Below are positions 10,206 to 62,633 of a DNA stretch of 64,000 nt, one piece after another. How positions within the stretch are numbered: position 1 is the stretch's first letter; each line of letters opens with the position of its first letter. Source of the stretch: Norana najaformis. Lineage: Eukaryota; Annelida; Clitellata; Crassiclitellata; Hormogastridae. The notes beneath the pieces were generated by a model. It made no database searches and was not told the origin of the DNA. It saw only the letters and a program-made list of their open reading frames with translations. The stretch lies in assembly GCA_964023275.1 (NCBI GenBank), contig OZ029914.1, forward strand, positions 38,726,424-38,790,423. The letters run 5' to 3'. The position numbers and the translations under genes were made by a program.

Positions 10206-10212
10206 CATGTAG

Positions 10213-10979: not shown

Positions 10980-11943
10980 AATCAACGTCCATCTTACTAC
11001 AGCTCATGCAGCAACAAGCAGACGAACGAACACGGTTATACGACGAACTTCGTGAAGAACACCGTGCTATGAAGGAACGATTCTCTCTCCTATTACAGAC
11101 GATGCAACAGTCAGGTCAGACCCCTCCCACAGCAAAACCACCTGCTCTTCGTTTTCCCTCCAATGCTATTCAATTGTCTGGCACCTCAACTATGGCCGAA
11201 TTCACAATCTGGCGTAAATCGTGGACGGATTATGCCCTGATCAAACGCTCAGATCACTATGTCCAGCCGACACATTTGGCGGCTCCTGACACACATGTTT
11301 AAGGACTTTCAAGCCTTCGTGAATGAATCAGTCACTACAGCTATCGAGGCCGTTGTACCAGATCAACCCACAGTTGAAGAAGCCATCACATCCATCCATA
11401 ACTTCATTCGTCGAATGCAAAACACCATCGTTGATCTCTTCCACTTCTTCACCCGCCGCCAACATCCTGGTGAGTCCTTTGAACATTTCATAAATGCACT
11501 GAGACAACTCAATCAGCAAGCAGGTATCTGCGCTCATTACATCAACACGCAACTGATGACGTTAATCACTATAGGCGGTTCAAGTCCCTGAGTTACAAAA
11601 GAAGTTCCTAGCAATTCGACCTACCCCGAGCTTCAACGAAGTCTGCCGAGCACTTGAATCAGCATGTGCTGGTAAAATAAAAATGGTCACCACACTCAGA
11701 TATGTGGGAACGGCGAAAAGTTCGAGAGATCAGGACGTATTTCTTCGACAAACAAGTCGACATCACTTCAAAGAGTTAGCACAGGTGGAAAATGTTACTG
11801 GTGTGGTGGAAAATCACACGCACGCTGAGCGCTTGTCCCGTAAAGATGCTACTTGCAGAAACTGTTCCAGAAAAGGCCATTACCAGTACGTAGGCCAGAT
11901 ACGTCTCAGGGATCCACATCCGGATCACAGCAATAAAACATAA
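10980..11943 (+). pseudogene. Ty3/gypsy gag, frameshifted
   Basis: Three overlapping frames make up a gag-like protein. The frame from 11006 has a charged coiled-coil start, then FTIWRKSWTDY. The frame from 11259 has the helical capsid-like part with FFTRRQHPGESFEHFINALRQL. The region around 11790-11890 holds zinc-knuckle remnants such as CRNCSRKGHY. Frame changes near 11270, 11590 and 11800 make it non-functional. A short hairpin, aaaacagc/gctgtttt, lies at 10828-10851. Confidence 0.7.
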
Positions 11944-12319
11944 AAATTTATTAAAACAGCTGAAGCCTTGAAGGATTAGGCAGGCGCATGGTAAAGGTCA
12001 GTAGCTATCGATGTGAGTGCTGCAAAACTCTTGGAATATCCAGATACCAACGCAGACAATCAACATTATACTAGAGAAATTCCTGTCACAGCTCAGTCTC
12101 GATCGCAGTGACTTCCAACGACGCGATTCACCGATGGGATACTTCACGGCCAAACTCAACATAGATTCATGCACAGTAACAGGCAAAATATATGTTCACC
12201 AAGGAACCAAACAATTCCTACTCTCAGGCATCACCTGCTAGGAATAATTTCATTCTCTTTTCACAATGTTATGGCAGTGACTTTCATACAGACACCGAAC
12301 GCATGTGTGATGATTAAGG
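11944..12319 (+). pseudogene. Ty3/gypsy gag-pol junction remnant
   Basis: This DNA lies between the gag knuckles and the RT and should correspond to the protease region. Only short broken frames remain and no DSG/DTG protease motif is convincing. It is cut off by the DNA transposon starting at 12323. Confidence 0.35.
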
Positions 12320-12322
12320 TAA

Positions 12323-14672: not shown

Positions 14673-14675
14673 TAA

Positions 14676-15870
14676 TAGATACAGATCCATCTCCAGATAT
14701 TATAAAGAACATCCATAAACCCATCCTGAATAAGTTCTCAGATCTCTTCAGTGAGGACTACACACTAAAGCCAATATAAGGATCACCTATGAAGATGCAT
14801 CTCAAACCCGACGCATAACCACACTCAATAACGGCACCTCGGTAGCATTCATTCTACAAGACCAAGTCAAACAAGAGCCTCAGATCATTGTGGCCAAAGA
14901 CATCATTGAAAATCTGGAAGACGAAGCCGCCCTATGGTCGTAATACGCAAGTCGAACGGACAGATAAGTATATGTGTTTATTACACTATGCTCAACAAAT
15001 ATGTCGCACGTTCTATATATCCATTTATTATATATATCCGTATATATATGTTATATATATATGCATAAAGAAGCAATGGATTCCTTCCAGCCCGGAGACA
15101 AATTTTTCACCACCCTGGATGCAACACAGGGGCACTGGCAGAAAGCAGACATCTTACCAGATTCATCACCTCCGAAGAGCGATTCTGGTTTCTCCGAACA
15201 CTAGTGAGACTCAACGCCTATCTGAATAACGTCCAGAAGGTGGCTGATGTTATTCTCGTATACACTGAGACTTTCGACAAACATTTGGATACTGTTATGG
15301 CCGTCCTTCGTAGCTGTGGAGAGAAAACGGCATCACAATGAACAAGAAAAAGTTTACATTCTGCCAATCCAGCGTGCAATATGAGGGCTATAACGTCACA
15401 ACTACAGGTATTACAGCCCACCCAACCAAAGTCTTCGCGATGTCACAAATTCCGTTGCCCACCAACAGAATTGCGCTCGTTCTTCGGCTTGGTAATTTAG
15501 CTAGGAAACTTTAGCAAAGACATCGCAGCAGTGGCAGAACCTCTTCGCTTGCTTCTTAAGAAAGGTGAACATCTTTGCTTGTTCAGCATACCAGCAAATA
15601 GCATTCCAGAATGTCAAAGCCGCTTTAACAAAGCTACCAATTCTTCAGTCGTCTGATCCAAAGATTCCCACAATACCACAAACTTATGCATCCGGAGCAC
15701 GGGGAATCGGTTACGCATTACTACAGAAACGCCCCAATAACAATCATGTCCTAATTCAGTGTAGTAGTTGATTCCTGTCCGATGCAGAATCGAAGTTTGC
15801 TTTGCTCGAACTGGAACTCCTGGCTATCGTATGGACCCTGGAAAAGTGTCGTTTGTATTTGCTCGGACTC
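14676..15870 (+). pseudogene. Ty3/gypsy reverse transcriptase and RNase H, degenerate
   Basis: Broken frames read as a Ty3/gypsy pol: near 14730-14800 the pre-RT linker; near 14975-15110 NKYVARSIYP and FFTTLDATQGHW (RT motif A with its aspartate, TTLDA); near 15180 a LRTLVRLNA motif; near 15470-15570 RSFFGL, then AEPLRLLLKKG. The RNase H part begins at about 15590 (FQNVKAALTKLP). Many stops and a TA-rich stretch (15015-15065) show long decay. It is the continuation of the gag remnant before 12320. Confidence 0.72.
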
Positions 15871-17377
15871 CCTCAATGAAAACTCGTATTACCACTCTTC
15901 CCCATCACCATCTCAAAGGGACTAATACTAGATGAAATCGAGAACTTTCTCCTTCTCCGTGTACGGGAGAAGCTTCTGCCATTCACTTTCGAAAGAGAAT
16001 GGAGAATCGGACAGGCACACATGATTTCCGATGAACTCTCTCGAGCACCTGTACAAGACCCAGATGATACAGACAAGAATCTAGAACCCACTAACGACAT
16101 GAAAATCAAAGTAAACTATATGATAACACAGCTGAGGGAGGACGATTAGAGGGACAATACCAGAGATCCCGCAATCAAACAGTTGACAAATGCAGCCAAG
16201 AATGATGAATATTATCAAGCATTGATCAGACTAATACATCACGGTTTCCCAGCCAAATCAACCCGAACTTCAACCGTATTAAAAACTTCGCCATGACCTT
16301 ACTATACATCTTCACCAGACAAGAATCGTTGTTCCGAAGTCTCAATGAGCTGATTATTCTCCGCAGACTCCACCTCTTACACCAAGGCATTGATAAAACG
16401 AAACACAGAGCACAGCAGACAGTTTACTGGCCTGGCCTCAGATTTGACATTATCAACACCATCAGTGCCTGCTTAAAGTTTCAATAGGGTCGGGCTTCAC
16501 TTCCAGCAGAAAGCATAGAAACCGATAAACCTCCTAGGAGACCATTTCAAGAAACTGAGACAGAAATATTCGAACATGCTGAACACTATTATCTGGCTCA
16601 TGCGGACTTTTTATCAGACTGGATAAAGGTGTCCAGATTTCACAAATGTCCGAGTACCGAAATGATTATAAATGCCTTGCGAAGATACTTCGTTCAATTC
16701 GGCATCCCCAACAAACTTCGGTCAGACGGGGGTCTACATTTTACTTCAGATGCGAAGAAACTTGGACTAACATCAAGAATTCAGCTAACCACACTTTCCA
16801 TCTTCAAGTGGATTGGTCGAGTCTGCGATGAAATCAATAAAATCTCTCCTTGCTGCATCCACAACCATTGGAGACATTGGGAGCGACACCTTTGCTAACT
16901 GTCATAATTTGTTAGGAACTAGATAAGAATGACTAGATTTGGTGTAATAAGCTGGCCAGCAAGAATATAAGTAAATAGTTAAATGGAGAAGGCCGGTTTA
17001 GCTATTTTTTGAATATTAAGTAGGTTTTACCGGGGACTTGCTGTGCCTTCTCGAGCTTCGCAGAAACCTCCGAGGGCAAATATTTTATCACAAGCACAAC
17101 TGATATTCCGGTCACCGTTACGATCTTGTGTTCCAGAACATCCTCAAATGGAGAAATCGTAATGTACGCTGATGGAGCAGCTGAAGTGTTCAATAATTAT
17201 TACCGGTTTTCCTCTATAAAAAGTAGGGAACATCCGTGAGCCCAACAAAGATTTTAGGCAGTGGTAAGAATGGATGGTCACAAATCTTTTTACCAAAAAA
17301 AAATGTCGGGCACAGTTGAAAAGGTTAAAACTCCAGATTCCAGGTATAGATTGTCGACAACCTTAATTTTTGCACGA

Positions 17378-17379
<2 letters not shown>
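15871..17379 (+). pseudogene. Ty3/gypsy integrase remnant
   Basis: At 16350-16480 one frame reads RRLHLLHQGIDKTK and VYWPGLRFDI, the HHCC zinc-binding region of Ty3/gypsy integrases. At 16590-16760 it reads FLSDWI, IINALRRYFVQFGIPNKLRSDGG and HFTSDA, the integrase core including its second aspartate region. It then decays. A 146-bp repeat lies at 16900-17045. A GTVEKV-containing frame near 17310 may be the chromodomain/GPY-type end. Confidence 0.65.
16900..17045. repeat. 146-bp direct repeat, copy 1
   Basis: It starts tgtcataatttgttaggaac and ends ggggacttgctgtg. A second copy lies exactly 910 bp downstream (17810-17955) with about three substitutions and no indels. This copy appears to interrupt the integrase remnant. 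The TG start suggests an LTR, but no matching target duplication was found. Confidence 0.8.

Positions 17380-17449
<70 letters not shown>
17380..17449. repeat. (GA)35 microsatellite
   Basis: An uninterrupted GA dinucleotide run of 70 bp. Confidence 0.98.
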
Positions 17450-17453
<4 letters not shown>

Positions 17454-17809
17454 AAAGGAAATCGGAAAGACACTAACACAGACTTTTTAATGCAGATTGG
17501 AGAGGTATCGTGCGAATGGAGACATGCACTTACGGCGTCATTGTTTCAAAGGATCATAGAAATGAATCATATGTAAATATATATGGACAAACCAGTTAAT
17601 CACACGTTTGAAGAGGAAGCTGGGATGGTGTGGCTATTTAGCATTCACAATAATTTCCTGTAGTTCTAATACAGGTTGAATATCTTCTGAATCGCTTAAA
17701 ACCGATGCTTTGTTATATTCCGTGTAGCGCGCCGTCCTGTAGTTCGCATTTGCATTGTTGTAACCTTTGTCAATACTTACTTGACTAGATTTAGCGCAAA
17801 CTGACTAGT

Positions 17810-17955
17810 TGTCATAATTTGTTAGGAACTAGTTAAGAATGACTAGATTTGGTGTAATAAGCTGGCCAGCAAGAGTATAAGTAAATAGTTAAATGGAGAA
17901 GGCCGGTTTAGCTATTTTATGAATATTAAGTAGGTTTTACCGGGGACTTGCTGTG
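17810..17955. repeat. 146-bp direct repeat, copy 2
   Basis: Second copy of the repeat at 16900-17045, about 98% identical. It is followed by a TATA-like tatttaaat at 17969, which would fit the continuation of an LTR. Confidence 0.8.
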
Positions 17956-19827
17956 TATTGACTAAGCACGCCTATTTAAATCCGTTGTTCAACTAGGCCA
18001 GTTTTAACTGTGACAAAGCGAATTTGAAGCAGCCATAGTTTGCCAAAAGATCGGTCTAACAGTTGAAACTGCAAGGCCGAGCAGGTCAGTGAAGCATTTG
18101 AAAATTCTGACATCATCCAGCAGACGATCTTTCTGCATAGGTTTTAAGCTTGAAACGGTTGAAATTCGGGAGTCTTACGAAAGGTAGCAGACACGATGAC
18201 CGTTTCGGACGCCTTGTAATTCTCGAAGTTGGAGTCTATTCGATCGATATCACTGTATTAAGTCGCCGTTTTAAGACTAGTAGAAACGGAGTCTTAGCTG
18301 CAATGAGCAATGTTAAAGTTTACTGATCGAAGTATGTCCAGGCTAATGCTGAAATCGGACGATACAGATTCGTAGCTTCGTCGCAAGTTATAACGAACTG
18401 AAGGAAATTAGATCATCGTATCCGAACGAGTCTTTGTTCGCGAAATTGTGGACTAACTCATCATCGAGTTTGGTCGTCGAATTGTGGACCTTTCGATTGA
18501 ATATTCATCGAAAGACCGAATAACTACTTGTCTACCAAATGGTAATCCACGTGGTTTTGAGGGATCGTCATTTGCCCTCTTTACGTTGAAGGACTCTGAG
18601 AAAGCCGCACTGCCGCGTGAAAGGTGGAAACGCATCCATTCTTCTGTGGAAGGATTTTGGAGAAAACTGAAATGGATAATCTCATCTTATGGAAGGGAGG
18701 TTAAAACGCACTGCATCTTTAGCATAAATAAATTGCTGGCCTTTTAAGTAAGGTAATTGTTTTAATATATGAATGCAAATGAACTGTTTGGACGAGTTAC
18801 ATTTAATTGTGTTTAATAAGACATTTGAAATAGGCACATAATGAGCCATGAATGATGTATAAACTGATGTTAATAGTAAGTACTTTAGTAAGGTGTACTG
18901 CAGCATAATATCAATGCTTGTAACACGTAGCGGGCTCAAGTATTTATAGAGCGTGCTTAGGCATCTAAATTAAATAAGTAAGTAATATATATCTAAATGA
19001 AGAGAAATATTTAAAATGAGACAAGAGACTTAAAACCGATGTTATGTTATATTCCGTTAAATAAGGATTTAAGATAATATCATTATGAGAGATAGATTGC
19101 ATTTTTGTTATGAACAGTCAATCATCAACTTGTTGAAACGTTTTGCGCGAAAACTACGAGTTCGATTTAGCTTGACATTAAGGAAGTACTGTGTTAAACT
19201 GAATGTGTGAAGCATGTAGTTTAGGAGGCGATCGTGTCCAAACGGCACATCGATAACAACAAAAGGGTAAAGAAATTGGCATAATAATGAAGACCAGTCT
19301 TATTTGAAATTCAGTTGTGTCTGTGTTCTTGCAAATTATGTGTTTCCCTTACACGAAATCCGATACTGTTTATATTAGGCCATGGTACACTTTTAAAAAG
19401 TTTGTAATTGTAATTAGAAATTTCTGTAGCGCTAGTTTGCAATAAACAGGGAGTCAACCGATGGCCCACCAAAATCAAGCCCTATTTCACGACAAAATCC
19501 AGTTTAATATAAAATCCAGACTCACTCCGCTGAAACAGAAAGGCAGCCTATATAAGCCAACTGAAAAATTTAAGTTTATTACACGTTCCTTACGGCCACA
19601 GAAAAAAGACTAACAGTTATTGCAACAAACCCAAATCGAAATAGTTATAGGCTTTAACGAAGAATATGCGAGTTAGTTCTTGGCCTATGCTATCCTAATT
19701 AATTGCTAGGCTTATGTAGCATGAAATCTTGTTCGGACAGTGACTAACTTCTTTATATTATCACACATCGCAGGCCATTTCATAGTTTGTACCTGGATGT
19801 TTATCTATATTTCTTTTGTTGTGTTAG
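17956..19827 (+). other. Remainder of the SRCR4 intron
   Basis: No gene is supportable. An 87-codon open frame at 18484-18747 has no recognised domain. A short block near 17694-17724 recurs at 19031-19061 (ttaaaaccgatg...gttatattccgt). A minus-strand LINE tail with GCGCTA and attacaattac lies at 19405-19440. Confidence 0.5.
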
Positions 19828-19991
19828 ACACATGGGTGCCTTTATCGGTCATCGTCATGGTAATGGAACTGGTAAAATCTGGTTGAAAAACGTCGCATGT
19901 GCTGGTACTGAAGGAAGCATCGCCGTATGCATGCATTCTTCATGGGGAGTACATGACTGCACTCACAACGAAGATGTCTCGATTAGTTGTG
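19828..19991 (+). CDS. Gene 1 SRCR4, second-half exon, GC donor
   Basis: The acceptor is gtgttag. The frame reads GHMGAFIGHRHGNGTGKIWL, then cysteines at VAC, AVC, HDC and ISC, with HNEDVSISC intact. At the position where the other second-half exons splice, the sequence is TGT G|GCAAGT. That is a GC-AG donor with otherwise perfect consensus, and it keeps the phase 1 exit and the 164-nt length. A GT donor in the right place is absent. Confidence 0.88.
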
Positions 19992-20353: not shown

Positions 20354-20507
20354 GAGTAACGACGAGACTCATCAATTCACTACATGCGGCAAACAATCCA
20401 GAAGAGGGACGCTTAGAAATCTATTACGGTGGTGTCTGGGGAACAGTTTGTAACGATAACTTCACAGATACCAATGCAAAAGTAGCCTGTGCCAGCCTCG
20501 GTTTTGG
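20354..20507 (+). CDS. Gene 1 SRCR5, first-half exon
   Basis: The acceptor is atcgttaag and the donor is GG|GTATTT. The exon has no internal start codon but is open. It reads VTTRLINSLHAANNPEEGRL, EIYYGGVWGTVCNDNF and AKVACASLGFG. Spacing and both cysteines match the other first halves. Confidence 0.87.
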
Positions 20508-22197
20508 GTATTTCAAATTATTTGATTTCCTCTTATGAGACTGGCTTATTTGATTATTTGATCAGTACTTTCCATTATTAATTTTTATTTAATAGATACT
20601 GCAAAATATAAACCAAAATTCATCTAAGAACTGTTTTTGATTCTACAACTCTGCCAAGCGTTGCTGGAAAAAGATTTCCTGTTTACAGGTAAAAAGCAAG
20701 CAATTGTTCTACATTCGCTGAAGAGGCAGGAATAGTGGGATAGAATCATGAGCTACAGTCTATTCTCAAACAGTACATTTCTAGCGAAGGTTATTTAATA
20801 AAGATCTCCATCGATATATTGTACGCTCTTTGACTGCAGCAGCTCTATGTCGAGACTACAATACCGTTTTAGGAAGGAGCATTCTACATTCTACTTAGCC
20901 TCACCTCGGATGCCAATCAACCTGCTCATGTCTCGCGGCTTTGCTCTGTTCGATAGAATCGCACCATTCTACACGGTCGATCACGTGATCCTATTCACGC
21001 ATTTAGCCCTATAAGCTGTTTAGAATCATAAAGAATTGGTGCTCAAAGTCATGGCTGGCTTTACTAATTGTTGAATGAATGGACAGTAGTGGTAACCATG
21101 AGCTGTGATTGCACCGCTTGGACACCAGTTCCATTCTTTGTCCCACAGAAAACTGCTTTCGATCCGGTTCTTTGCATCCTGTGCACAAGATATCTGACTC
21201 AATGCATCATGCTCTGAGAGCGCTGGTCCACAAGCAGAAGCTTTGCCGATGAAACTCAAGTGTGCCGCACTTGCTATTTTTCTGACGCTGTCTTATAAAG
21301 CGAGCTACTATGGCCAAAGTAGAGGAATGAATGTGTTATAATCGGCCTCAGTTGAACGTGGCAAAGATGAAATAAATCGGGCTAAGCACATGCCTGGCTA
21401 GGTTAAAGACTGACGAAGAGTCGATGAAGTCGATGAACTTATCAGGATCAACTTGTAATACGTTTGGATGGAAAGAATCTGTGACTTATGATGTAAATTC
21501 CGTCTGCAGTTCCTGCTTCTATTAGCTGAGTCGGATAGGGTCGTATGATCCTAGCCATCTCTTAGTGCTAACGTTATATTTCTTATTAACTAGTTATGAA
21601 GTTATTAATGTGTTATAGGCTGCCCTAAATTAGCTGGACCTCGGCTCCTTTTGGGTAGACCTTTGCATCCAAAAAAGTGTACTTTTTGTTATTTGCAATG
21701 TTTTTATTCTATTCTTCTTTGGAGCAATAAACTTACTACTATTACTATTATAATTGATTATTCGCTCATCGTGACGCTGTTTTTAATTTCAGCAGTTCCA
21801 ACCATGCAGCTTGGCCATCTTTATGGCTGTATCAGCTCTGTGTTCTCTGATGCCCAAGTTAATGCTTGCAAGCCTAAATTCTCGCACATTTTGAAATGTT
21901 TGTAAAGATTCTGCGTTGGCTTCCTGTTGAGCAACAAATTGCATTCAAGATCCTTCTACTAGGTCGGGATCCAAGTGCACCGCCTCATTTTCATACATCA
22001 TGAGATGTGTTTTCCAGTGTCAAATAAAGCAGTTAATCGCGTCATTTTTGCCTGCGGGGATTTGCAGGTTCTGCGCATCCGTTTATCAACTCGTAACCAC
22101 CGTCCCTTCTCGTGTTCTTAATCTTAATCTTTGAACATTCTTCCAGTGCAATAGTGTTGCAGAAAATAGATGCTCAGTGATTTTGTTTGTGAATTAG
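20508..22197 (+). other. Intron inside SRCR5
   Basis: Nothing clear is present. Around 21600-21760 the sequence ends in a (TAC/TTA) repeat after an AATAAAC, which looks like the tail of an old retroposon. No coding exon was found. Confidence 0.4.
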
Positions 22198-22361
22198 ATA
22201 TAATGGAACATTTATCGGTAATCGTCATGGCAGTGGGACTGGCCAAATTTGGTTGGATAACGTCACTTGCAATGGAGCTAAATGGAGTATCGATATGTGT
22301 TCACGAAGCTCCTTGGATGTTCATGATTGCGGTCACCACAAAGATGTCTCAGTAAGATGTG
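22198..22361 (+). CDS. Gene 1 SRCR5, second-half exon
   Basis: The acceptor is gaattag and the donor is G|GTAAGA. The frame reads GYNGTFIGNRHGSGTGQIWL, then cysteines at VTC, DMC, HDC and VRC. The tryptophan before the third cysteine is replaced (SSLDVHDC), and the acidic pair is HKDVSV. No stop is present. Confidence 0.88.
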
Positions 22362-22578: not shown

Positions 22579-22738
22579 GAGACACTCGAGACTTTACCGT
22601 GCGGTTAATCGATTATTTCGGCTACAATTCAAAGGAAGGACGATTAGAGATCTACTATTCAGGAATCTGGGGAACAGTGTGTGATAACAACTTTACGGAT
22701 GTCAGCGCAAGAGTGGCATGTGCCAGTCTTGGATTTGG
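22579..22738 (+). CDS. Gene 1 SRCR6, first-half exon
   Basis: The acceptor is cctttgtag and the donor is GG|GTAAGT. It reads RDFTVRLIDYFGYNSKEGRL, EIYYSGIWGTVCDNNF and ARVACASLGFG. Confidence 0.88.
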
Positions 22739-23184
22739 GTAAGTTCCCTGCTCGTATATTTATGCGCTATTAGATATGCGTTGTTGACTCAAGTGAAAAA
22801 TGTATGATCTGACTGCTTCATTGTGAATTAAAACGTATGAAATAGACTTACAATGTTAGGATTTCGAAAATTACAACGAAAACAAGTCCTCATTTTTGTA
22901 GACGTTCTATGTAGTATTTTTGCCTGTTTATTCAACATAAAATACAAATTGCAGGATGACAATTAGGTTCATTGTTGGTAAGCAAGACTGTCAGCCTACT
23001 TCCTACAATGTTACATCGACCATGCTGTAAATGCTGCTAAACAGATTGAAGCTTATACGCTCGGGCATAGGCTCAGACTGTAACATGGTCTCGTTAAGAC
23101 AAGACAGATTCGTTAAGTGTTGCTTCGAGTTATTATGTACCATGTACAAAGCTTTATTACTATTTTTTTAAAATGTGAACTTAG

Positions 23185-23348
23185 TTACGTCGGTTCAGTA
23201 ATTGGAAATCGTTATGGAGGTGGAAAAGATGCAATATGGCTGGATGACGTGAAATGCAATGGAACAGAAAGCAGCATAGAGCAGTGCAACCATGGGGGGT
23301 GGGATGTGCAACACTGTGGCCAAGGTGAAGATGTCGCAATTAGTTGTG
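23185..23348 (+). CDS. Gene 1 SRCR6, second-half exon
   Basis: The acceptor is gaacttag and the donor is G|GTGAGT. It reads GYVGSVIGNRYGGGKDAIWL, with cysteines at VKC, EQC, QHC and ISC; GEDVAISC keeps the acidic pair. Confidence 0.9.
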
Positions 23349-27125: not shown

Positions 27126-27270
27126 GGACAGAAGCGCAACTTGTCAATTCCACCGAAAAACCTAACGAAGGACGACTGGAGATTTACTATGCGGGTGTTT
27201 GGGGAACTGTTTGCAACGACGGTTTCAGTAATATAAGTGCAGGAGTCGCTTGTAAAAGTCTTGGTTTTGG
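27126..27270 (+). CDS. Gene 1 SRCR7, first-half exon
   Basis: The acceptor is cttttag and the donor is GG|GTAATT. It reads TEAQLVNSTEKPNEGRLEIY, AGVWGTVCNDGF and AGVACKSLGFG. At 145 nt it is the shortest first half; the loss lies before EGRLE. The intron 23349-27125 before it holds the retroelement pieces listed above. Confidence 0.88.
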
Positions 27271-29199
27271 GTAATTTCACATTCTCTTACGTCTTCGTAA
27301 ACAATCTTGTAAAATGTTGTAAATATGTCTTTTTAATATAACGTCATCTTTTGCGTTTGATAATTTTAGTGATCGGCTCTGATAAAATGAGTCTTAAGTC
27401 CGATTTTTTCTCATTCTCAAAATTTCATTTTATTAGTAATGCATTCAATTTTGTTTAAAATGAGATAAATTTTAATGTAGGCCTATTTTCCAAGTTATGC
27501 CAAAGATGATGTCAGTTTGAAATTCGCGACCATGAAATTTACAATTATGAGAAAAATGCTTTTTGCGGTAGGATGCGGTTTTTCTTAGCGACCAGTAACT
27601 CTTAAATAAGACCTTCTTCGCTAGCGCCTGGGAGATTTGAATCGAATATTTGAAATGGGCAGCTGACTTTCAAACGATTATAATATGCCTGTTATTCGCC
27701 ATAAGATTGCCAAATTTCGTCCAGAAATTGGATCTTTTATCTCCGCTTACCACGACTAGTCATTTAAAGTTAAGCATTTATAAGCCAATAAGACAATATA
27801 TGTGTGTGCTGAAAGAAAGACGATTGTTGCGTCGAAGAAGTATCCGAAAGTGATATCAGTTGGATAGGGGTAGAGATAGTGGGTGGTGATATCCCCTATT
27901 CAGATGACCAGCGGTGCTCGATGTTTAGTGGTTTAATCTTCGTGGAATTTAGCCTACTCTTGCTGATGGGTTGTAAATCGTCCGACGATAACGAGATGTG
28001 CTTTTTGGGTTTTCTTATATTAATTAAATATGTACACAGTATTTACAGCGACCTTTACAAAACATCATTTAGATTATGTGACTCACTTCGGTCAGTTACT
28101 AGGAGTGGTAAACCTGTTACGAGATGCACGTGCTATTTAACCTTCGGCTCTTCGGATGTTGCTCGTTTGGCTGTAACTTCAGCTAATTCCTTTCTATCCA
28201 ACTTTCTCCTCTTTCAGCTTCTTTCCTTCCTCCCTCATCTCTCACCTCCAACTGCCAATCAATCATCTCTACCCTATCCACTCTACAATCTGCGGACCTC
28301 TGTCCGCCCTTCATGTCTCTCTTTTCGGTATGACTTTGTGACCCCTGTCCTTTCTACTCGTCTCCGTCTCTCAGTCTCATTTTATTGCAAGGGTGCGCAA
28401 ATTAGTTAAGCCGCTATTAATGATACACAGGCTTGCATAATAATATAGTTCGAGCATGTTAAAATAATTAATTGTAGTTCAAACAAGCTTAATAATAAAA
28501 TTTGCACTAATGTTAAGGACTAGAATGAGCGTCATCTTGCCCGCAGTTTACTTTTGCGTTGTGCCACTATTAAGACTCAGTTTGTCAGAGCTGGTTATAT
28601 TTATTTGGCGATTCCTACCCAGGACTAAATTTTACTACAAAATATCTAAACTGTGAACGCTATGTCGCATTGCTTTGCAGGCATGTCTGAGCGTGCAACT
28701 GCATAGAAAATTTTAATGAGTCAATAGTCTATCGATTTGTCGTGCACATGCGTATCACCAGATACATGGTAGGAATGGTGTGATTGGCTGGAAGAGCCCT
28801 TCAGGTAGGCCGGCTGACGTCACCAGTAATTATGGCTGACGCGTATTTTATCATGCACGTGCTTTGCGATGATTCGGATGATTTTTGGAAACCTGATTGT
28901 GTAATAAACATGATTGCGTAATAACAGGAGGCAACGAATCTGGAAACTCGACGGTCCATAAGCCCAGTGGATGACAACTGCGGGAAGATTGTCTACAAAA
29001 ACCTTCAATATTTCATAAACTGTCCGACAAAGCACATCTATGGCGATTTTTTTATTTTGTAAGGAGTAAATGTCGAGTCAAATTTAACCCACATAAATCG
29101 CCATGTGTTGAAAATACATTCTTCTTAACATTTACCCAGAGCAGTAGCTCAATACAAACACAAAACCATTGTAAATTAAACTGTCATTTGTGAAACTAG
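27271..29199 (+). other. Intron inside SRCR7
   Basis: The 176-codon open frame at 27879-28409 shows no domain I recognise and has a Ser/Pro/Leu-rich second half typical of chance reading of CT-rich repeat DNA. No exon is supportable here. Confidence 0.4.
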
Positions 29200-29363
29200 A
29201 TATGTCGGCTCTTTCATCGGGTCTCGCTACGGAAGTGGAACTGGACAAATCTGGTTGGATGACGTCGTATGCAACGGTACTGAAACAAACCTCGACCAGT
29301 GCTCTGCACGGCCCTGGGGCGTTCACAACTGCAGTCACAATCAAGACGTATCAATCAGCTGTA
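29200..29363 (+). CDS. Gene 1 SRCR7, second-half exon
   Basis: The acceptor is gaaactag. It reads GYVGSFIGSRYGSGTGQIWL, then cysteines at VVC, DQC, HNC and ISC, with HNQDVSISC. The donor is TGT A|GTTGGC; it is weak but sits exactly at the family position. The last base is A, not G, so the first CUB residue becomes Asn. This is the last SRCR before the CUB part. Confidence 0.85.
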
Positions 29364-31842: not shown

Positions 31843-32033
31843 ACTGTGGCAAAACGTTATATTATGAACTTAGTGGAAGAATTTCATCTCCAAATTTAAC
31901 GACACGTCTTAGGGATCGCCGGAATTGTTTCTATTTCATCGCAGTCCCTGCTCGACATAAAGCCGTTATTACAATAAGTATAAGTATCTTCCGGCCATCT
32001 TACTCCCGGTCAGGATCAAGATATGATGCAAAA
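31843..32033 (+). CDS. Gene 1 CUB1, first-half exon
   Basis: The acceptor is tttttttgcag and the donor is AAA|GTAGGT, phase 0. It reads CGKTLYYELSGRISSPN, NCFYFIAVPARHKAVITI. This is the CUB pattern CG...G.ISSP...NC.Y.I..P, with cysteines 1 and 2. CUB domains are beta-sandwich adhesion modules of extracellular proteins. The intron before it (29364-31842) has no recognised exon. Confidence 0.88.
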
Positions 32034-32724
32034 GTAGGTATTAAAATATAATACTGAAGATGTGAGGTATTTTCCATATGTATGTCCTATGATTGAAGGC
32101 CACTTTACTGTTTCTAACAGGACTCGCAGTTCCATCTTTTATTAATTGAGTACATTAACTAATTCGATTGTAAATCAAATATTGGGATTATCAAAAATTG
32201 TAAATCCCTACCTTTTTAGTCCAGTAACTCACCGAAAAATGCGAGAATAGACAATATGTCAAAATTTAAACCCAGTTTAGAGTTATAGTTAACTTGTTTA
32301 ACCTTATAGAGTACCATAATGACATGGAACGTCAATGTCTAATTTTCACCGATGTCAGCCGAAGAGGCGTGTAGCCCATTTAAATCTCTGTTTGTAGATA
32401 GCTCTAAGCACATTGGAGTTTTATAATCTGCTTTTAAATAATCTTCTGGGTGACTAGTTTGAAGTCCTTTGGGTGTATTAGACTTATGGGCCCCCTATGA
32501 ACACCCGTTCTATTTACAGTGGAATGTACCTATCACTTTGTAGTTTGCTTTTAATACTTGCAATACAGTTCATTGACATTCAGAACGACAACTTTTTCTG
32601 TGAATTGAATTTTATTTCATGTTTTAATACAATTGTTAAGGTGGATTCTTGTGATTATGATAAATTCTATGTTATAACATAAACATGCTACTGCAGTGCA
32701 TTTTCAAGACTTTGCATTGGAAGG

Positions 32725-32835
32725 AGGCCAAAGTATGAAAGAAGAAAACTATTTCTATAAGAACTTGGATTGCTGTTGATATGACACACCGTGGTTAAGA
32801 GGTCTTTTTACTTCGTGTAATGCACTATATGAAAT
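32725..32835 (-). repeat. Diverged relative of the LINE piece at 34770-35110
   Basis: The block aagaacttggattgctgttgatatgac...tggttaagaggtc resembles 35025-35085. It is too decayed to read as protein. Confidence 0.35.
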
Positions 32836-33049
32836 ATTCTTCTGACAGTATATTATAATTTGTACAAAAATTCAAACCAAATATTTATAATATATAGCAG
32901 CTCTTGCTTGACAGCTTTTTAAAAGCCAAAATTATGTCCTTCAGATCTATGAGATTTGTAGGTTTTTGAGGGCTCTGGGCTGAACCACCCCGTTGGCCAC
33001 CCTATATACGCAATGATTTCGATTGACGAGTGTAATCGTTCTTTGTTAG

Positions 33050-33212
33050 GTTTTATGTGCAAATGGAGAAGCCTTTGAAGCGGAGAGATATTCAGATTTT
33101 GCCTCATCTTTGACCATTACATCATGCACCCTTGTAAGAATTTGGTTTTACACAGTTTACCGTTCGCGCAGAGGTTCCAATCTCGCCTATGTCGCCTATG
33201 TTATTAAACCAG
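33050..33212 (+). CDS. Gene 1 CUB1, second-half exon
   Basis: The acceptor is ctttgttag and the donor is G|GTAAAT. It begins VLCANGEAFEAERYSDFASS, then LTITSCTLVRIWFYT and ends AYVIKPG. It supplies cysteines 3 and 4 of the CUB domain, and its end is typical for CUB (F.L.Y.). It is closely parallel to the exon at 35763-35925. Confidence 0.86.
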
Positions 33213-34254: not shown

Positions 34255-34433
34255 ATTGTGGCAATACGAGCTACTCTGCAGTTACAGGAACAATTTCATC
34301 TCCAAGTTATCAAAATCCCATGTTGTATGCGAATGGCATAAATTGTACCTATTTCATCTCAGTCCCATCTACATATAAAGCCGTTCTTAATTTTCTGGCA
34401 TTCACTACCGAGTCACCAAATGATTGGCTAACA
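34255..34433 (+). CDS. Gene 1 CUB2, first-half exon
   Basis: The acceptor is tttttgtgcag and the donor is ACA|GTAAGT, phase 0. It begins DCGNTSYSAVTGTISSPSYQ, then NCTYFISVPSTYKAVLNF and DWLT. It keeps the CUB signature and cysteines 1 and 2 better than CUB1 does. Confidence 0.9.
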
Positions 34434-34769
34434 GTAAGTATTGAAACATCAAATGCAGATTTGACTTGCATCCATCATGCATTTCTAATGATTTAAGGCC
34501 ACTCGAATAAATCTAACAATGGTGCATGAGATATCAGACTTATGGCCATCTCATGCACGCCCATATTCCTTGCAACGGGCAATTAGTACGACAACTCTTT
34601 GTTTGATGGGCTGATTTTTTCACACTTTTATACGATTACTATGGCAAAATACTGTGATTATTGTAATTCATAATCGTAATTGTATTTGCACATTTATATG
34701 GCACCTGTTCAAGAAAACTATTCAGAAGTGTTCTCGACCTGACAAAACAACACATGAATCAGATTCAGT

Positions 34770-35110
34770 GATCTTCAACCGCCCCCAAAATAGAGGTAGA
34801 GATACGTGGCAGATTGTTCCAGAGTGAAGGGCCAGCAACGGTGAAGATAGTATGTTGTAACGCAAGAGTACGGGACGAAGGGACAAAAACCGAAACATCC
34901 TACATTATGCTGCAGAACGAAGAGGCAGATGCTAACGATTACTCTTGTCACCTGTGGATCCTCTATAGGTGTGCAACACCACATCTCTAAGTTTGGAGGA
35001 GACCAAACTGTTAAAGAGAAAATTGTACTTGAAAGAACTGAGATCGTTATTGATGTAACTCCTCGTGGTTAGAGGTTGTCTTGTCCTGTGTAATTGCACA
35101 ATTCAGTTAA
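34770..35110 (-). pseudogene. CR1/L2-like LINE RT C-terminal fragment
   Basis: The minus strand at 34770-34850 reads HTIFTVAGPSLWNNLPRIST, the widely shared end of CR1/L2-clade reverse transcriptases (VAGP.LWN.LP). Upstream in the element (34860-35110) the frame is broken. From 35110 to 35762 nothing is recognised. Confidence 0.65.
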
Positions 35111-35762
35111 AGTGGCCATGAAAAAACTCTCTGGGATACCACTCTAGGACCAAAAAGTGGATAACGCATCCGGTGTGACTTACGAAAGCTTTCAGCAACA
35201 AACCGAAACAATAGACGAAAAACCAAACCAGGAGGCTGACATATTTTCAGAAAGGTGTCAACGAAAATACAAAAAGGACTTTTCAAGGAAAACGAAGTAT
35301 AAAAAAACGAGAAACGTATGATAGTTGGATCCTGGAAAGATTTGAAATTTGAAACTGTGATATGTTATATCTGCTATTTTTGAAGCCAAAATAATCATCT
35401 TCAGTTTCAGTAAACTGAGGCTCATTTAGCACAACATAAGTTTAATGAAAGTTTAATGAAAGCTATTTACAAAATTATGCAAGTATATTTATGCAAACAA
35501 ATGCAGGCTACCCTTTATTAAATATCAAACATTTTGCAGTGTTTACTTAGCGCTACCTTTGAACCTCGATATAGCAAGGAAAATTACGTATTTAAATCTA
35601 CCACATGGAAAGCGTGTTTACCCAACTTCAGTTCATATATAAAATCGACGTTTTATAACAAAATCTTTAGGTTGCTATGGTCTGAGCAGAAACTAGTTAC
35701 TGAAAAATCGGTTTTTGCAGCCAAAATCATTTTCATTCATGAAGGTTTACCATTTTTTTCAG

Positions 35763-35925
35763 GTTTCTTGTGCAGATGGAAAAGCCTTTAAGTCGCAAAA
35801 CTACTCCCGTTCAGTTTCGCCCTCAATTTTGACCATCCCATCTTGTAATCTTGTAAGAATATGGTTTCATGCAGACTACAATGTGACCAATACAAGTTTC
35901 CGCCTTTCTTATGAAATTGTTAAAG
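35763..35925 (+). CDS. Gene 1 CUB2, second-half exon
   Basis: The acceptor is tttttcag and the donor is G|GTAAAT. It begins VSCADGKAFKSQNYSRSVSP, then ILTIPSCNLVRIWFHADY and ends LSYEIVKG. It has cysteines 3 and 4. The 163-nt length equals CUB1 second half, and the similarity indicates a tandem CUB duplication. Confidence 0.9.
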
Positions 35926-37102: not shown

Positions 37103-37234
37103 CATCGTTTGCAAATGAAAATTTGAATTCAAGTACGAATGTTCTTGTGATATCAACACTTGCAAGTCTGCTGGGTCTATGTATTATTTTCGTGACAATG
37201 CTCATCGTCCTTATTTCTCGCAAAACCAGACAAG
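37103..37234 (+). CDS. Gene 1 transmembrane exon, GC donor
   Basis: The acceptor is gtttgtcgcag. After a short polar stretch (SFANENLNSSTN, with a possible N-glycosylation site) comes a hydrophobic helix of about 25 residues, VLVISTLASLLGLCIIFVTM and beyond, followed by the basic stop-transfer SRKTRQ. The exit is CAA G|GCAAGT, a GC-AG donor whose phase 1 matches the tail exon. Reading on past it, the frame stays open to 37476 without domain content. The alternative GT donor near 37266 would be phase 0 and would not join the tail in frame. Confidence 0.82.
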
Positions 37235-41560: not shown

Positions 41561-41814
41561 AAAGAGACGGTGTTTTGCCCGGAATTCATCTGAATACCTT
41601 TACACATTCTGGGCAACATGGAATCGACCTAACTGAAGCCAAAACTGGAGAAACTGGATATGAAGGTCTTCGATCGTCGGGTATCTACGAACATTACGAT
41701 GAAATAACTGCTAATGACTATCAAACAATAAACGAGTACTGCGAAAACCCTGGCCTCAAACAACAAGACGACGACCTATTCTACGACGAAATTAATCCAG
41801 CTGATTGCATTTAA
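41561..41814 (+). CDS. Gene 1 cytoplasmic tail exon with ITAM-like motif
   Basis: The acceptor is ctgatatcag, phase 1, and the stop TAA is at 41812-41814. The 84-residue tail is acidic and tyrosine-rich. Near its middle GETGYEGLRSSGIYEHYDEI contains YEGL and YDEI separated by eight residues, which fits the YxxL/I-x6-12-YxxL/I spacing of an ITAM. Downstream are YQTI, YCEN and, close to the C-terminus, a second YDEI. YxxL/I motifs may be phosphorylated and bind SH2 domains, or act as endocytic YxxPhi signals. There is no other domain. Confidence 0.85.
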
Positions 41815-57495: not shown

Positions 57496-57661
57496 CAGTT
57501 ACTGAAAATTTCACCGTGCGACTGAATAATTCGCTATCTTCCGATAGCAATCCAATGGAAGGACGATTGGAGATCTATTACAATGGAATCTGGGGAACTG
57601 TCTGCGATGACGGATTTACAAATGCCAGTGCCAAAGTGGCTTGTGCCAGTCTTGGTTTCGG
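57496..57661 (+). CDS. Gene 2 SRCR1, first-half exon
   Basis: It reads AVTENFTVRLNNSLSSDSNP, EGRLEIYYNGIWGTVCDDGF and AKVACASLGFG. The donor is GG|GTGATT. The acceptor is tgttgcagcag, a NAGNAG site: use of the second AG (start 57499) would drop one residue without changing frame. It is the first domain after the signal peptide. Confidence 0.9.
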
Positions 57662-58081
57662 GTGATTGCACTTTACCAATTTATTTAATGTAATGTAATA
57701 GGGAAGTCAAATAGCACATTTACGATAGTACCATTTAAGTTAATGCAATTTAATAGGCAAGCTATGTAGCACCTTCAAAAAACACTGTCACAATCACCCA
57801 GAGCTTACTTATACGAGAGAAAAAGTAAGTTAATAACGCTAATCCTATGCGAAGTAAAGCGGAAGAATATGACTGCATTGTCATAGCGCCATCGATGACA
57901 TTTTAACTTCAGGTTTTGTTGGATATAACAGACCTTTTGAGTAAATAGCATTCAAGCAGTGTATATGAATAGTTGATCAATAGCTACATTAGATTTCACT
58001 AATTCAACGCAATACAACGTAACTGAAATATAATTGTTCAGAGGTGGTAAGTTTAAATATATTTGTCAATATAACAAAGGT

Positions 58082-58150
58082 TAAATTGTAATTGTAATTT
58101 TAAATTTGCATAACGCCTCTTCAAGAAAAAATCCTCAGAGGCGCTCTCTG
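58082..58150 (-). repeat. LINE 3' tail, minus strand
   Basis: On the minus strand it reads gcgcctctgaggattttttc, then attacaattacaattt. Same class of ending as at 44870 and 19405. From 58200 to 58637 there is also a short 15-bp repeat (ccagtagtccatcgt at 58384-58417) but no coding sequence I accept. Confidence 0.55.
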
Positions 58151-58880
58151 CGCTAACGATGTTAAATGTAATTAAGAACGGAACATTCATCTATTAGTAA
58201 ACATTGCTCAGATGACTAGAAGAGTCGCCAGTGGCGAGCTCGCGCACACACGACAAGTCCAACAAACAGGTTCCCAACTAGAGTTGAAAGATGACAGTAT
58301 GTTCAGGGTTTCTGAATCATGTAGCGTAGAGGATGAGGAAACGACGATGGGCGATGTGATCCGCCACCAACGGCTGTCCCATCGTCCAGTAGTCCATCGT
58401 CCAGTAGTCCATCGTCGATGGAAGACGACGCAGCGTCCGGATATTCCTCGAACCGACGGACAGGCAATCATCGCCCGCCTGCCGGTAGGTAGGTGAAACC
58501 TTCCATGGTTGACGATCAGTGCCACTCCAAAGACTCTTCGCCCTTCCTCCACCGAATTCATGAATTCCCGGCAGAGTCGGCGTACGCTTGGCTGTCGAAC
58601 TAGAAACCTGCCCCTCTGTAAGTGGACCATTCCAGGCGGTTATAGGACAATAACCCCCGGACAATAGACCCCGGACAATAACCCCGGGACAATAACCCCC
58701 ATGCAAAAATCCCCCGGACAGTAACCCCCAATATTGATATATTAATTTTATATATATACAAATAACGTATATATTAATCATACAGTTTATATATTAATTT
58801 ATTAGATATATACGCCTCTTTTAACACCCAAACGACACTACACCATTTGCTAAATTTTTCTGCCTTACGTATACATAACC

Positions 58881-59067
58881 TTCAAAACTAAGTTTATCTT
58901 TACCTTGATCAGATTTTATAAATTCCATCATGGACAGAAATAGATCAAAATTTTAAACTTTGTATTTTCCATAAACCATTTCTTTTATATAGTAGTTGAC
59001 CTCTTTCATGTTGAATGATAATTCTTTCATGTCTACTCTGTGCCCAATTGTTTAATAATTGTCTAAT
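58881..59067. repeat. 186-bp direct repeat left of the nested LINE
   Basis: It begins ttcaaaactaagtttatctt and ends near taataattgtctaata. About 93% identical by eye to 60350-60537. The two copies immediately flank the nested LINE, so they may be an unusually long target duplication. Confidence 0.85.
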
Positions 59068-60350
59068 AAAAACATGAATTTCAACTGACAGGTGACTTCA
59101 ATATACATATCGATAACCCCTCTGACACTTTAACTTCTGAATTCCTCACCCTATTATCTTCAACAAATCTAGTTGAACATGTCAAATTCCCCACCCACAT
59201 TCACAACCACACACTTGACTTTATTATCGCATCATTATTCTCCACTCTATCACCTGATATATCTTTCTCTTTTAACACACCATCTGATCATTACCCCATT
59301 TTTACATGTCTTAACATTCTTCCGACTCCACCTCCTGACCCTGTCTTTCATTCTTTCCGTCGCATTAGTTCAATAAATATTGAAGCCCTCATACAAGATA
59401 TTTCCTGTTCTGACCTCGTTTTAAATCCACCCTCCTCCATTGATGACCCTCTGTCTTCTTACAACACCACCCTTTCCACCATCCTTGACAAACATGCACC
59501 TATTATTACCAAATCCAGCTCTCACTCTAACAATCCTTTGTACAATTCCTATCTCCAGACCTTCAAATCTTTCCGGCGACGCCTTGAGCGCACTTACAAA
59601 CGCAGCATGGATCCGCAACTTCTTTCTGTTCTTAAATCTGCCACACATAAATACCATCACCTCCTCACTGCAGCTAAACAGAGTTATTACTCCTCACTAG
59701 TTCGTTCTCGCTTCTCTAGCCCTCGCCTTCTCTGCAAAACCATAAACCAACTCCTCCATCGAAACTCATCCAGCCCACTTCCAAATTCTCTTCTGTCTTT
59801 TTCAATAGCCGACTCGTTCCGTTCTTTCTTTCCGAACAAAGTTAGTACCCTCCGTCTCTCTCTTCAATCTCTCCTGCCTAAAACCACTAATAACCAACCT
59901 GATGATGCTCCCTCCCACACTCATGACTCCCTAACCTCCCCTTCTCGATCTTCATTATCTTTCTTTCAACCCACTTCTGAATCTGAAATATTACACCTGT
60001 TAAAACAACTTCGAAACAAACAGTCCGAACTTGACCCTATACAAACCTCCTTACTGAAAGACAGCGCATCTGTCCTTGTTCCACTTATTACCAAAATAGG
60101 TAATCTCTCCTTTTCTGGGAGTGATTTCCCCCTCCTATTCAAACACTCTCTTTTTACCCCTCTTCTCAAGAAATCATCTCTCGACAAGGAAATCCTTTCG
60201 AACTACCGGCCTGTTTCTAATCTGACTTTCATTTCCAATCTCTTGCCTATCGATTTTGTTTTGACTGAGCGCCTGTAAATAAGCTGGTTCCCGCGACTTA
60301 GCATTCGTTGGGCGCTGTAGAAATCTCGAGAATACGATTACGATTACGAT
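59068..60350 (+). mobile_element. Truncated, internally deleted CR1/L2-like LINE
   Basis: An open frame without stops runs from about 59073 to 60278. It starts in the endonuclease (LTGDFNIHID at 59085), continues with HTLDFIIA and the SDHYP motif near 59285 (APE endonuclease catalytic region), a linker (59350-60080), and the RT entry PLLKKSSLDKEILSNYRPVS near 60160-60210. It then jumps from FISNLL straight to a short end (TERL, stop 60278), GCGCT and (ACGATT)3. So the 5' end, the RT core and most of the rest are missing, but the retained frame is intact, which suggests a recent insertion. Confidence 0.85.
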
Positions 60351-60537
60351 TCAAAACTAAGTTTATCTTTTCCTTGATCAGATTTTATAAATTCCATAAT
60401 GGACAGAGATAGATCAAAATTTTAAACTTTGTGTTTTCCATAAACAATTTCTTTTGTATAGTAGTTGACCTCTTTCATGTTGTATGGTAATTCTTTCATA
60501 TCTACTCTGTTCCCAATTGTCTAATAATTGTCCAATA
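60350..60537. repeat. 186-bp direct repeat right of the nested LINE
   Basis: Right-hand copy of 58881-59067. It adjoins the acgattacgatt tail of the LINE. Confidence 0.85.
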
Positions 60538-60689
60538 TTTAGTTCTTAGATGTTTTGTCATTCTTTCATGTCTACTCTTTACTGTATGTACTGTTTCAGT
60601 ATAGGGGGTTATTGTCCGGGAGGTTTTTTGCATGGGGGCTATTGTCCGGGGGGTTATTGTCCTGTTACCATTCCAGGCATAGAAAGTCA

Positions 60690-61312
60690 AGATAACATGA
60701 ATCTAAACCGTCCGATGCGCAGTAAATCCGTGTTTGGAACAAAAAAATACTTCCGATACGCAGACCGGGCAACAGTGAAAACCCGCACTGCCAGAATCAT
60801 GCCCAAATTTCACATTTGGACAGTTTAATCCGTCAAAATAACGTGAAGAAAAGCCAAGGACCAATATGGCCGCGAGGATGTGCAGGTCAACGTATTAACC
60901 ACTATATTGCAAGGCAGTATCAAAAACCTATTTTCATAGCCCCATTCACAAACTCCAATATGAGTCAATTTATTGTTCTTACAAGCTTGGAAACTTTGTA
61001 CCAGTTCAACACAAGTCTAAAATCTCATCTACACAATGCACTTAGTTAAGTTATCGTTTGGTGCTTAGTTAATTTTTTGTTTGTGTTTATGCATTGACAT
61101 TGATTATATTAATTACTTTTATATTTTAGATTATTAATTGTTTTACTCAGTATAATTCTGTCATCTATTTGCAATCCTTGATGTAAACAGGTGACCTTCG
61201 TAGCGGAACTCTTTGTTCCTCTTAGGTCAACCCATTGGCACCAATTTATGTGACAGACTGTGATTGTATTTGTTAATTATTTTGGTGATCAATAATTCTC
61301 TCTCTCTCTCAA
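60690..61312 (+). repeat. Possible LINE 3' end
   Basis: A frame ending at 61047 reads SLETLYQFNTSLKSHLHNAL, like the last residues of CR1-type RTs, followed by non-coding DNA ending in (CT)n at 61300-61312. Support is weak: only one motif. Confidence 0.4.
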
Positions 61313-62118
61313 ATCATAGAATACCAAGTCTCAGGCAGTTACGTTAGTGCAGCAAAATGTTAGCGGCGACATATCTTAAGCATAGAAGATTTCTCGACCT
61401 TATATAAGTCTGAAATTCTTTAACTGATTGACTTGTAATATTATAACACTTATAACAGGAAGCGCAATTATAAAAACGGGGCAATAAAAAACTTGTTTTT
61501 TACTGAGTTTTTTATTGTTAGCATCGTAGCGATATTTGGAGCCTAGCGTGTTAAAATTTAAAAAATTGCAGGCCGTTTATAGTAACAGAATACCAATTAA
61601 TGGAGAATGAGGTATTTCAATCTTGATAAGTGATGAAAAATCTAAACGAAAATAAATACCAGTGACTACGCTTCAATGATTCAATAGTGGAAAGTATCGT
61701 ATGCCTCTTTTTGCATTTAATTAGTGCTTATGTCATATCGTTATTGTTTTCTCGCGGATTTGTAGCTGAAAATGTTTTTTTCCAGAATGTTGTTTCTTCT
61801 ATATTTTGTTTTAGACCAGAGCGTTTAAGACATATTATATCTAAGCCCTATAATATAAAATCTGACGCTCAGTATTGTAAGTCCATGTTAGTCTTTGCCA
61901 TTCTTGGGTCAGTTGTAATAACGATTCCTTGTAACACTGTTTTGGTTTCAGAGATCACATATGCCAGGTATTGCTTTAGGCTACCTTTGCATAGACTACT
62001 GCGTATGCAGTACTCGCGACTCTTTAGGTTTAGCCATCATCATCTAAAAACCTCTAGAAAAACTGAAGGTTAGAACGAAAAACCTTTTGTCATATATCTT
62101 ATTTGTGCACCATTTCAG

Positions 62119-62282
62119 ACACATCGGTGTATTCATAGGCAATCGCCATGGAAGTGGAACTGGTCGGATCTGGTTGGATGAAGTCAGTTGCACAGGAACT
62201 GAACTTGGCATCGACAGATGTGCGCATAACGCATGGGTTGGAAACAACTGCACCCATAACGAAGATGTCTCGATCAGATGCG
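62119..62282 (+). CDS. Gene 2 SRCR1, second-half exon
   Basis: The acceptor is catttcag and the donor is G|GTTAGG. It reads GHIGVFIGNRHGSGTGRIWL, then cysteines at VSC, DRC, NNC and IRC, with HNEDVSIRC. Its closest relative in the window is gene 1 exon 1705-1868 (shared TELGIDRCAH-type core and upstream intron). Confidence 0.92.
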
Positions 62283-62467
62283 GTTAGGCTATTTTATTAC
62301 TAATATGATTAAAGTTACGATCACATAACTAAGATGATGAAAACGATAATGGTGGTGATGATGCCGCTACTGATGATACTGATGATGATTTTGTTTATTG
62401 CGTCTTGGTTTTGGCCTCTGCTTTGTGAGTCGTTGTTAATTCACACTATGCGATGATTATAATTTAG

Positions 62468-62633
62468 GGAATACTCCGGATTATACCGTGCGACTTGTCA
62501 ACACACTGGTTGATGTTTCAACGCCTATCGAAGGCAGACTTGAAATCTACTACTCTGGAGTCTGGGGCACTGTTTGCGATGACGGCTTTACAGATGCCAG
62601 TGCAAGGGTTGTGTGTGCGAGTCTCGGCTTCGG
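62468..62633 (+). CDS. Gene 2 SRCR2, first-half exon
   Basis: The acceptor is aatttag and the donor is GG|GTAATT. It reads TPDYTVRLVNTLVDVSTPIE, GRLEIYYSGVWGTVCDDGF and ARVVCASLGFG. It is nearly the same as gene 1 exon 2027-2198 but two codons shorter. The second half of the domain lies beyond the window. Confidence 0.92.

Follow-up and report, generated by a model that had tools for sequence, protein, structure and literature searches.

Gene 1 is a cell-surface receptor gene on the + strand of the 64-kb stretch of DNA analysed here (the window), and its 5' end is truncated by the window's left edge. Its last exon encodes a cytoplasmic tail with several tyrosine motifs, one pair of which has the spacing of an ITAM. 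The locus therefore raises the question of whether this tail belongs to the receptor, whether its motifs exceed what chance would give, and whether they would serve signalling or sorting.

Structure of gene 1

Gene 1 comprises 20 exons from 933 to 41814 that form a single open frame; with its incomplete first codon and the stop codon this frame counts 1,117 codons. Reading of the frame and splice phases gives an identical phase at every domain border. Seven SRCR domains are followed by two CUB domains, a transmembrane (TM) segment and the tail exon. The features are listed below; each SRCR assignment is based on frame, splice phases and PF00530.

933..1868, + strand: SRCR 1 (exons 933-1086 and 1705-1868)
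2027..6824, + strand: SRCR 2 (exons 2027-2198 and 6661-6824)
8238..9145, + strand: SRCR 3 (exons 8238-8403 and 8979-9145)
9641..19991, + strand: SRCR 4 (exons 9641-9806 and 19828-19991; GC donor on the second exon)
20354..22361, + strand: SRCR 5 (exons 20354-20507 and 22198-22361)
22579..23348, + strand: SRCR 6 (exons 22579-22738 and 23185-23348)
27126..29363, + strand: SRCR 7 (exons 27126-27270 and 29200-29363)
31843..33212, + strand: CUB 1, divergent (exons 31843-32033 and 33050-33212; phases, Pfam CUB E 0.0043, below the cut-off, and similar exons in some paralogues)
34255..35925, + strand: CUB 2 (exons 34255-34433 and 35763-35925; Pfam CUB E 9.2e-10 and similar exons in 10 of 18 paralogous stretches)
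37103..37234, + strand: juxtamembrane and TM exon (GC donor AAG/GCAAGT; hydrophobic and uncharged, then SRKTRQ; homologues upstream of 16 of 18 other tails)
41561..41814, + strand: cytoplasmic tail exon and stop (YEGL, YDEI, YQTI and YDEI plus Y43 and Y60; about 20 tail exons in the genome)

The seven SRCR and two CUB domains proposed in a first-pass annotation are largely borne out by Pfam: within the window, PF00530 covers seven stretches of gene 1 (E 1.8e-177), and the second CUB domain is clear and the first weak. Each SRCR domain is encoded by two exons and has six cysteines (counted by eye). Group A SRCR domains have two exons each, and the six-cysteine domains of gene 1 fit group A. About 6.3 kb upstream of the window, also on the + strand, an additional SRCR half-exon is located after the preceding tail and before gene 1, such that gene 1 may have more than seven SRCR domains. 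No signal peptide was seen in the part of gene 1 that the window covers. The TM stretch, read by eye, has no charged residue and thus gives no sign of a DAP12-type adaptor; on the same ground a need for an adaptor that pairs with a charged TM segment was rejected. The structure supports a type I topology for the gene 1 receptor, with tyrosine motifs in the receptor's own tail.

A Pfam search with the TM-tail piece returned no ITAM family, Herpes_pp38 being the sole family listed (E 0.075, below its cut-off), and the two PDB matches of the TM-tail protein (E 0.11 and 0.36) are in our view due to chance. Rfam and tRNA scans over the whole window were empty. Two open frames were seen by eye to resemble parts of mobile elements, one at 45043-45800 on the - strand (the end of a LINE reverse transcriptase) and one at 11676-11825 on the + strand (a piece of a zinc-knuckle gag).

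Joining of the transmembrane and tail exons

The TM-tail intron of gene 1 is 4.3 kb long and has a GC rather than a GT donor at 37234 (AAG/GCAAGT). The tail exon begins at 41561 after an AG and its stop codon is at 41812-41814; one base passes from 37234 into 41561, and the exon phases fit the join as first annotated. We examined the 10 kb upstream of 18 other tails for a homologous TM exon and found one on the same strand in 16, four of the matches being weaker (E 9e-7 to 9e-6); in stretches L043 and L047 no TM exon was found within that distance. The TM-exon donor is at the identical place in 17 of 17 genes, the window's included, and reads GC in 12 and GT in five. That the GC donor marks a false exon was therefore rejected, as GT occupies the same site in five of the 17 genes. 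The tail acceptor, searched as AG/AA in the correct phase, is AG/AAAG in 17 of the 18 readable tails and AG/AAAC in L027. These paralogues back the proposed join, and the comparison lends strong support to the predicted splicing of 37234 to 41561.

A family of tail exons

Comparison of the gene 1 tail with its own genome (608 Mb, 17 contigs) gave at least 21 matches, which amount to at least 20 complete or partial tail exons on a single contig. Eighteen, among them the tail of gene 1 and the fragment L029, fall within 38.24-39.05 Mb; a further one is at 38.01 Mb on the opposite strand, and another is at 43.62 Mb. L028 is a second piece of L020 and was dropped before counting. The 18 readable tails leave out L029 and the damaged L022, which is seen in stretch L042 and has no first tyrosine. 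A set of 15 'intact' tails further omits L016 (frameshift), L024 (early stop) and L027 (divergent, with no TM exon within 10 kb); L023, in stretch L043, was retained although it too has no TM exon within 10 kb. CUB exons are found in at least 10 of 18 other loci of the array. On this comparison, gene 1 belongs to an array of some 20 predicted type I receptor genes with a common tail type.

In five stretches that have a homologous TM exon and tail (L038, L039, L041, L045 and L046), the 10 kb upstream contains no full CUB match; either their CUB exons lie farther off or the common tail is carried on different ectodomains. An SRCR search of the genome reported at least 153 matches, with scores for 150 of 508 candidates; the majority of the matches listed are on contig C2, which has a very large SRCR cluster from 36.35 to 39.05 Mb. 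Among the matches listed, orientation is minus up to about 38.03 Mb and plus from about 38.16 Mb, and stretches near 36.49 and 36.57 Mb recur every 1.6 and 1.4 kb, respectively, or thereabouts.

The next paralogue, gene 2, starts within the window:

57496..62633, + strand: start of gene 2 (SRCR exons 57496-57661, 62119-62282 and 62468-62633; the end of the 62119 exon and the start of the 62468 exon were placed by eye)

The next tail found downstream of the gene 2 start is that of L020 (C2:38829352-38829633), beyond the window; it has an internal repeat around DEINANEYQT and one more tyrosine. A scan of viral contigs with an SRCR exon of gene 2 found no relative. Introns of both genes contain paired repeats. 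In the TM-tail intron of gene 1, two 15-bp minisatellites at 38545-38634 and 39154-39287 lie about 0.5 kb apart in opposite orientation as judged by eye (AGGACTATTCATCA and GATGAACAGTCCTTT), perhaps reflecting a mobile element with repeat-like inverted ends. A gene 2 intron has the same arrangement, with GGACAATAACCCCC and its reverse complement at 58645-58729 and 60604-60662, about 1.9 kb apart.

Tyrosine motifs and their conservation

The gene 1 tail has 84 residues and contains YEGL (tail residue 34), YEHY (43), YDEI (46), YQTI (54), YCEN (60) and YDEI (75). The motifs are thus present as the first-pass annotation described them, with YEGL-x8-YDEI matching the ITAM pattern YxxL/I-x6-12-YxxL/I and YQTI, YCEN and YDEI following. 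By chance this pattern arises in 4.6% of shuffled tails of the same composition and in 0.9% of 84-mers of average composition; for four or more YxxL/I units the figures are 0.4% and 0.04%, respectively. The window has 271 stop-to-stop frames that are 60 residues or longer (145 on the + strand and 126 on the - strand), and nine of them, the tail being one, contain the bare ITAM pattern (six on the + strand and three on the - strand). Because the pattern also turns up in shuffles and other window frames, it is weak evidence taken alone, and it is conservation across paralogues that places the tail motif beyond chance. An ITAM pair arising purely by chance was rejected for this reason.

Two units are present in all 18 readable tails, Y34 as YxxL and Y54 as Yxx[ILV], with 16 residues between them, which is outside the ITAM range; the second is spelled YQTI in 11. 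An ITAM-spaced pair, always x8, is found in 12 of the 18 (gene 1 included) and in 12 of the 15 intact-looking tails, and is absent from L012, L016, L021, L024, L025 and L027; two of these (L016 and L024) are broken copies and a third, L027, has diverged strongly. The prediction that relatives would keep the paired tyrosines thus holds for the x8 pair in most paralogues, but the pair common to all is the x16 one. Y46 is lost in 5 of the 18 tails, L012 and L025 among them, and Y75 is kept in 15 of 17. Six residues are invariant across the 18 aligned tails (I22, Y34, E35, L37, E48 and Y54). On a tree of the tails that leaves 8 of its 15 inner branches unresolved, the presence or loss of Y46 requires four changes, and shuffled labels gave a number as low in 194 of 500 trials.

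Conservation of the motifs was compared with random tail sites by a permutation test that was designed after the alignment had been viewed and that ignores shared ancestry. In this post hoc test the four YxxPhi units are jointly above the tail average, with P values of 0.0001 (15 tails) and 0.0007 (18 tails) when L, I, V and M are grouped, and 0.004 (15 tails) and 0.012 (18 tails) for exact residues. Taken singly, YEGL gives P values of 0.006-0.036, YQTI 0.011-0.12, the last YDEI 0.036-0.21, and Y46/I49, the second half of the ITAM pair, 0.21-0.73. YEGL is the sole unit that is significant in all versions of the test, and in all versions YQTI and the last YDEI outscore the second ITAM half. 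The tyrosines outside YxxPhi units, Y43 and Y60, are conserved below the tail average and serve as an internal control, consistent with selection on YxxPhi rather than on tyrosine generally. The original description of the tail as ITAM-like therefore stands in part: a tyrosine-motif tail recurs across the family and a signalling role for it is plausible, but Y46 and I49 are no better conserved than random sites.

Overall constraint on the tail is weak, with pN/pS of 0.73 over 17 tails (L016 omitted). In nine tails it is 0.67, compared with 0.57 and 0.59 in the CUB 2 exons (11 and 10 copies, partly different sets), and the TM exon gives 0.85 (11 copies). The stretch from YEGL to YQTI has no indel in 18 tails, whereas the flanking stretches do.

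A motif scan found YxxPhi in 18 of 18 tails, GYxxPhi in 17 and Y[DE]E[IL], a sequence favourable to SH2 binding, in 14; NPxY, YxN and acidic dileucine motifs were found in none of the 18. Acidic residues adjoin several of the YxxPhi tyrosines, and a loose hemITAM pattern (an acidic residue at -4 to -2, then YxxL) is present in 16 of 18. The hemITAM of Dectin-1 and CLEC-2 has an acidic triplet, which was not seen in the 18 tails, the nearest sequence being DDGYEDL in L024.

Possible functions of the tail

We favour, with a probability of about 60%, a reading in which the array is WC1-like and its genes carry a multi-YxxPhi phosphotyrosine docking tail, ITAM-like or hemITAM-like in character. 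Clustering of the receptor by ligand would lead a Src-family kinase to phosphorylate the tyrosines of the YxxPhi units. SH2 proteins such as Syk-family or Src-family kinases would then dock on YEGL, either by itself or combined with YDEI (x8) or YQTI (x16), and docking would give an activating or co-receptor signal without an adaptor, as for WC1, Draper and hemITAM receptors. All 18 tails would be accounted for if YEGL acted in a hemITAM-like manner or formed a stretched pair, YEGL-x16-YQTI. We favour a docking tail because there is one open frame, a fixed donor place, some 20 tails, invariant residues and conserved YxxPhi units; the reading is weakened because YxxPhi is also an endocytic signal, constraint on the tail is weak, and the ITAM pair is missing in 6 of 18 tails. 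Expression, phosphorylation, SH2 partners, the sign of the signal and an immune role of the gene 1 family are what we infer from it. A bolder and rather doubtful extension is that about 20 SRCR/CUB genes with divergent ectodomains share one activating tail, YxxL-x16-YxxI with an optional x8 ITAM inside, and constitute an independent polygenic recognition system akin to WC1 or NK receptors.

The chief rival, a somewhat unlikely one, is that clathrin adaptors recognise the YxxPhi units as signals for endocytosis or lysosomal sorting, and that these are scavenger receptors that internalise ligand without SH2 signalling. The near-universal GYxxPhi is in keeping with this, as is the second invariant unit, YQTI in 11 tails, which has the four letters of the LAMP-1 sorting signal; the YREM of CD163A is also an uptake signal. 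CD163A carrying YREM is described as mediating haptoglobin-haemoglobin endocytosis (PMC2906472). Adaptor binding needs no fixed spacing between units, which fits the patchy retention of Y46. However, four conserved units would exceed what uptake needs, the acidic residues E35 and E48 are invariant, and the absence of indels between YEGL and YQTI is not shared by the flanks. In addition, Y[DE]E[IL] is closer to what SH2 domains bind than to what mu2 usually prefers. The conventional ITAM reading, in which YEGL-x8-YDEI engages the tandem SH2 domains of Syk and the remaining motifs are incidental, seems to us unlikely. Its spacing and residues fit gene 1 and the other tails with the x8 pair, most of the intact-looking ones among them, but its second half scores at the level of random sites and below YQTI and the last YDEI, and the scattered losses of Y46 on the tree also oppose it. 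A canonical ITAM present in most but not all copies is improbable as the family's only working part.

Two further readings find less favour. An inhibitory, ITIM-like family recruiting SHP-type phosphatases is quite improbable: the strict ITIM pattern occurs in 7 of 18 tails (at the last tyrosine in five of these) and TxYxxL is at the first tyrosine in 12 of 18, but no position is common to all tails, the -2 residue is present at YEGL and YQTI in one copy each (L025 and L027), and an ITSM is found in 0 of 18. That the tail exon is unused, as a relic or splice artefact, is hardly credible. The GC donor would fit such an exon, as would the two stretches without a TM exon in reach (L043 and L047) and the damage in several copies; against it are the exon join, which has one geometry in 17 genes whether the donor reads GC or GT, the tail frame that is open throughout in most of the 18 copies, and the invariant tyrosines. 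The phosphotyrosine docking tail, ITAM-like or hemITAM-like, thus remains the reading we prefer. The paralogues are natural variants, with Y46 kept or lost and Y34 and Y54 in every readable tail, and form a ready-made set for identifying kinase-recruiting tyrosines, such that the choice between ITAM, hemITAM and endocytic signals is directly testable.

Comparison with known receptors

SRCR genes are expanded in sea urchin and sponge, with group A enlarged in sea urchin and some genes including CUB, and CUB is listed among the partner domains in a survey of SRCR genes in 29 species (PMC10855680). The gene 1 array resembles these expansions; a term search of the main text of that survey found neither ITAM nor tyrosine (PMC10855680). 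Invertebrate ITAM and hemITAM receptors are already known (Draper and Botryllus FcoR), and the literature searched, which covered a minority of subscription papers, yielded no invertebrate receptor that combines SRCR and CUB domains with an ITAM-like tail.

The gamma-delta T cell co-receptors WC1 and CD163c-alpha, like the gene 1 family, are SRCR receptors encoded by multiple genes; they have a TM segment and, in the tail, motifs of the Y-(Q/E)-(D/C/E)-(I/L) type (PMC2906472, PMC2681482). WC1 is described as needing phosphorylation of its YEEL to potentiate T cell activation, and Y-(Q/E)-(D/C/E)-(I/L) is said to be common to WC1 and nearly all CD163c-alpha-like molecules (PMC2906472). WC1 is reported as group B, with one exon per SRCR domain and a tail in 4-6 exons (PMC2681482). 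Since group B is described as allowing 6-8 cysteines (PMC2906472), exon structure is the stronger sign than cysteine count. Gene 1 does not have the one-exon group B domains of WC1 and CD163, and it would therefore resemble WC1 in its working without being a member of that group. It differs from WC1 in having two exons and six cysteines per SRCR domain, in having CUB domains (WC1 is not known to have any), and in a tail encoded by a single exon after the TM exon.

As in the Draper/CED-1 family, the putative signalling motif of gene 1 lies in the receptor's own tail. The ectodomain of Draper is of a different kind from SRCR/CUB. Draper-I is described as an invertebrate receptor whose tail contains an ITAM and which acts via the Syk homologue Shark; ITAM function there is experimental, and Draper also has an NPxY motif, found in none of the 18 tails here (PMC4503800).

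The fester co-receptors (FcoR) of Botryllus, like the gene 1 array, are a large invertebrate type I family with tyrosine-motif tails, reported to include ITIM, hemITAM and YxxI/L/V motifs (PMC12065747). Their ectodomains are Ig and sushi, unlike the SRCR and CUB domains of gene 1. A search of the gene 1 genome for GH6 (PF01341), a family typical of tunicates, gave no match, and as the controls likewise gave none it says little about kinship with Botryllus. If the gene 1 tail signals, it would represent another, SRCR-based route to a large family of invertebrate activating receptors, comparable with WC1 in ruminants and the FcoRs in Botryllus.
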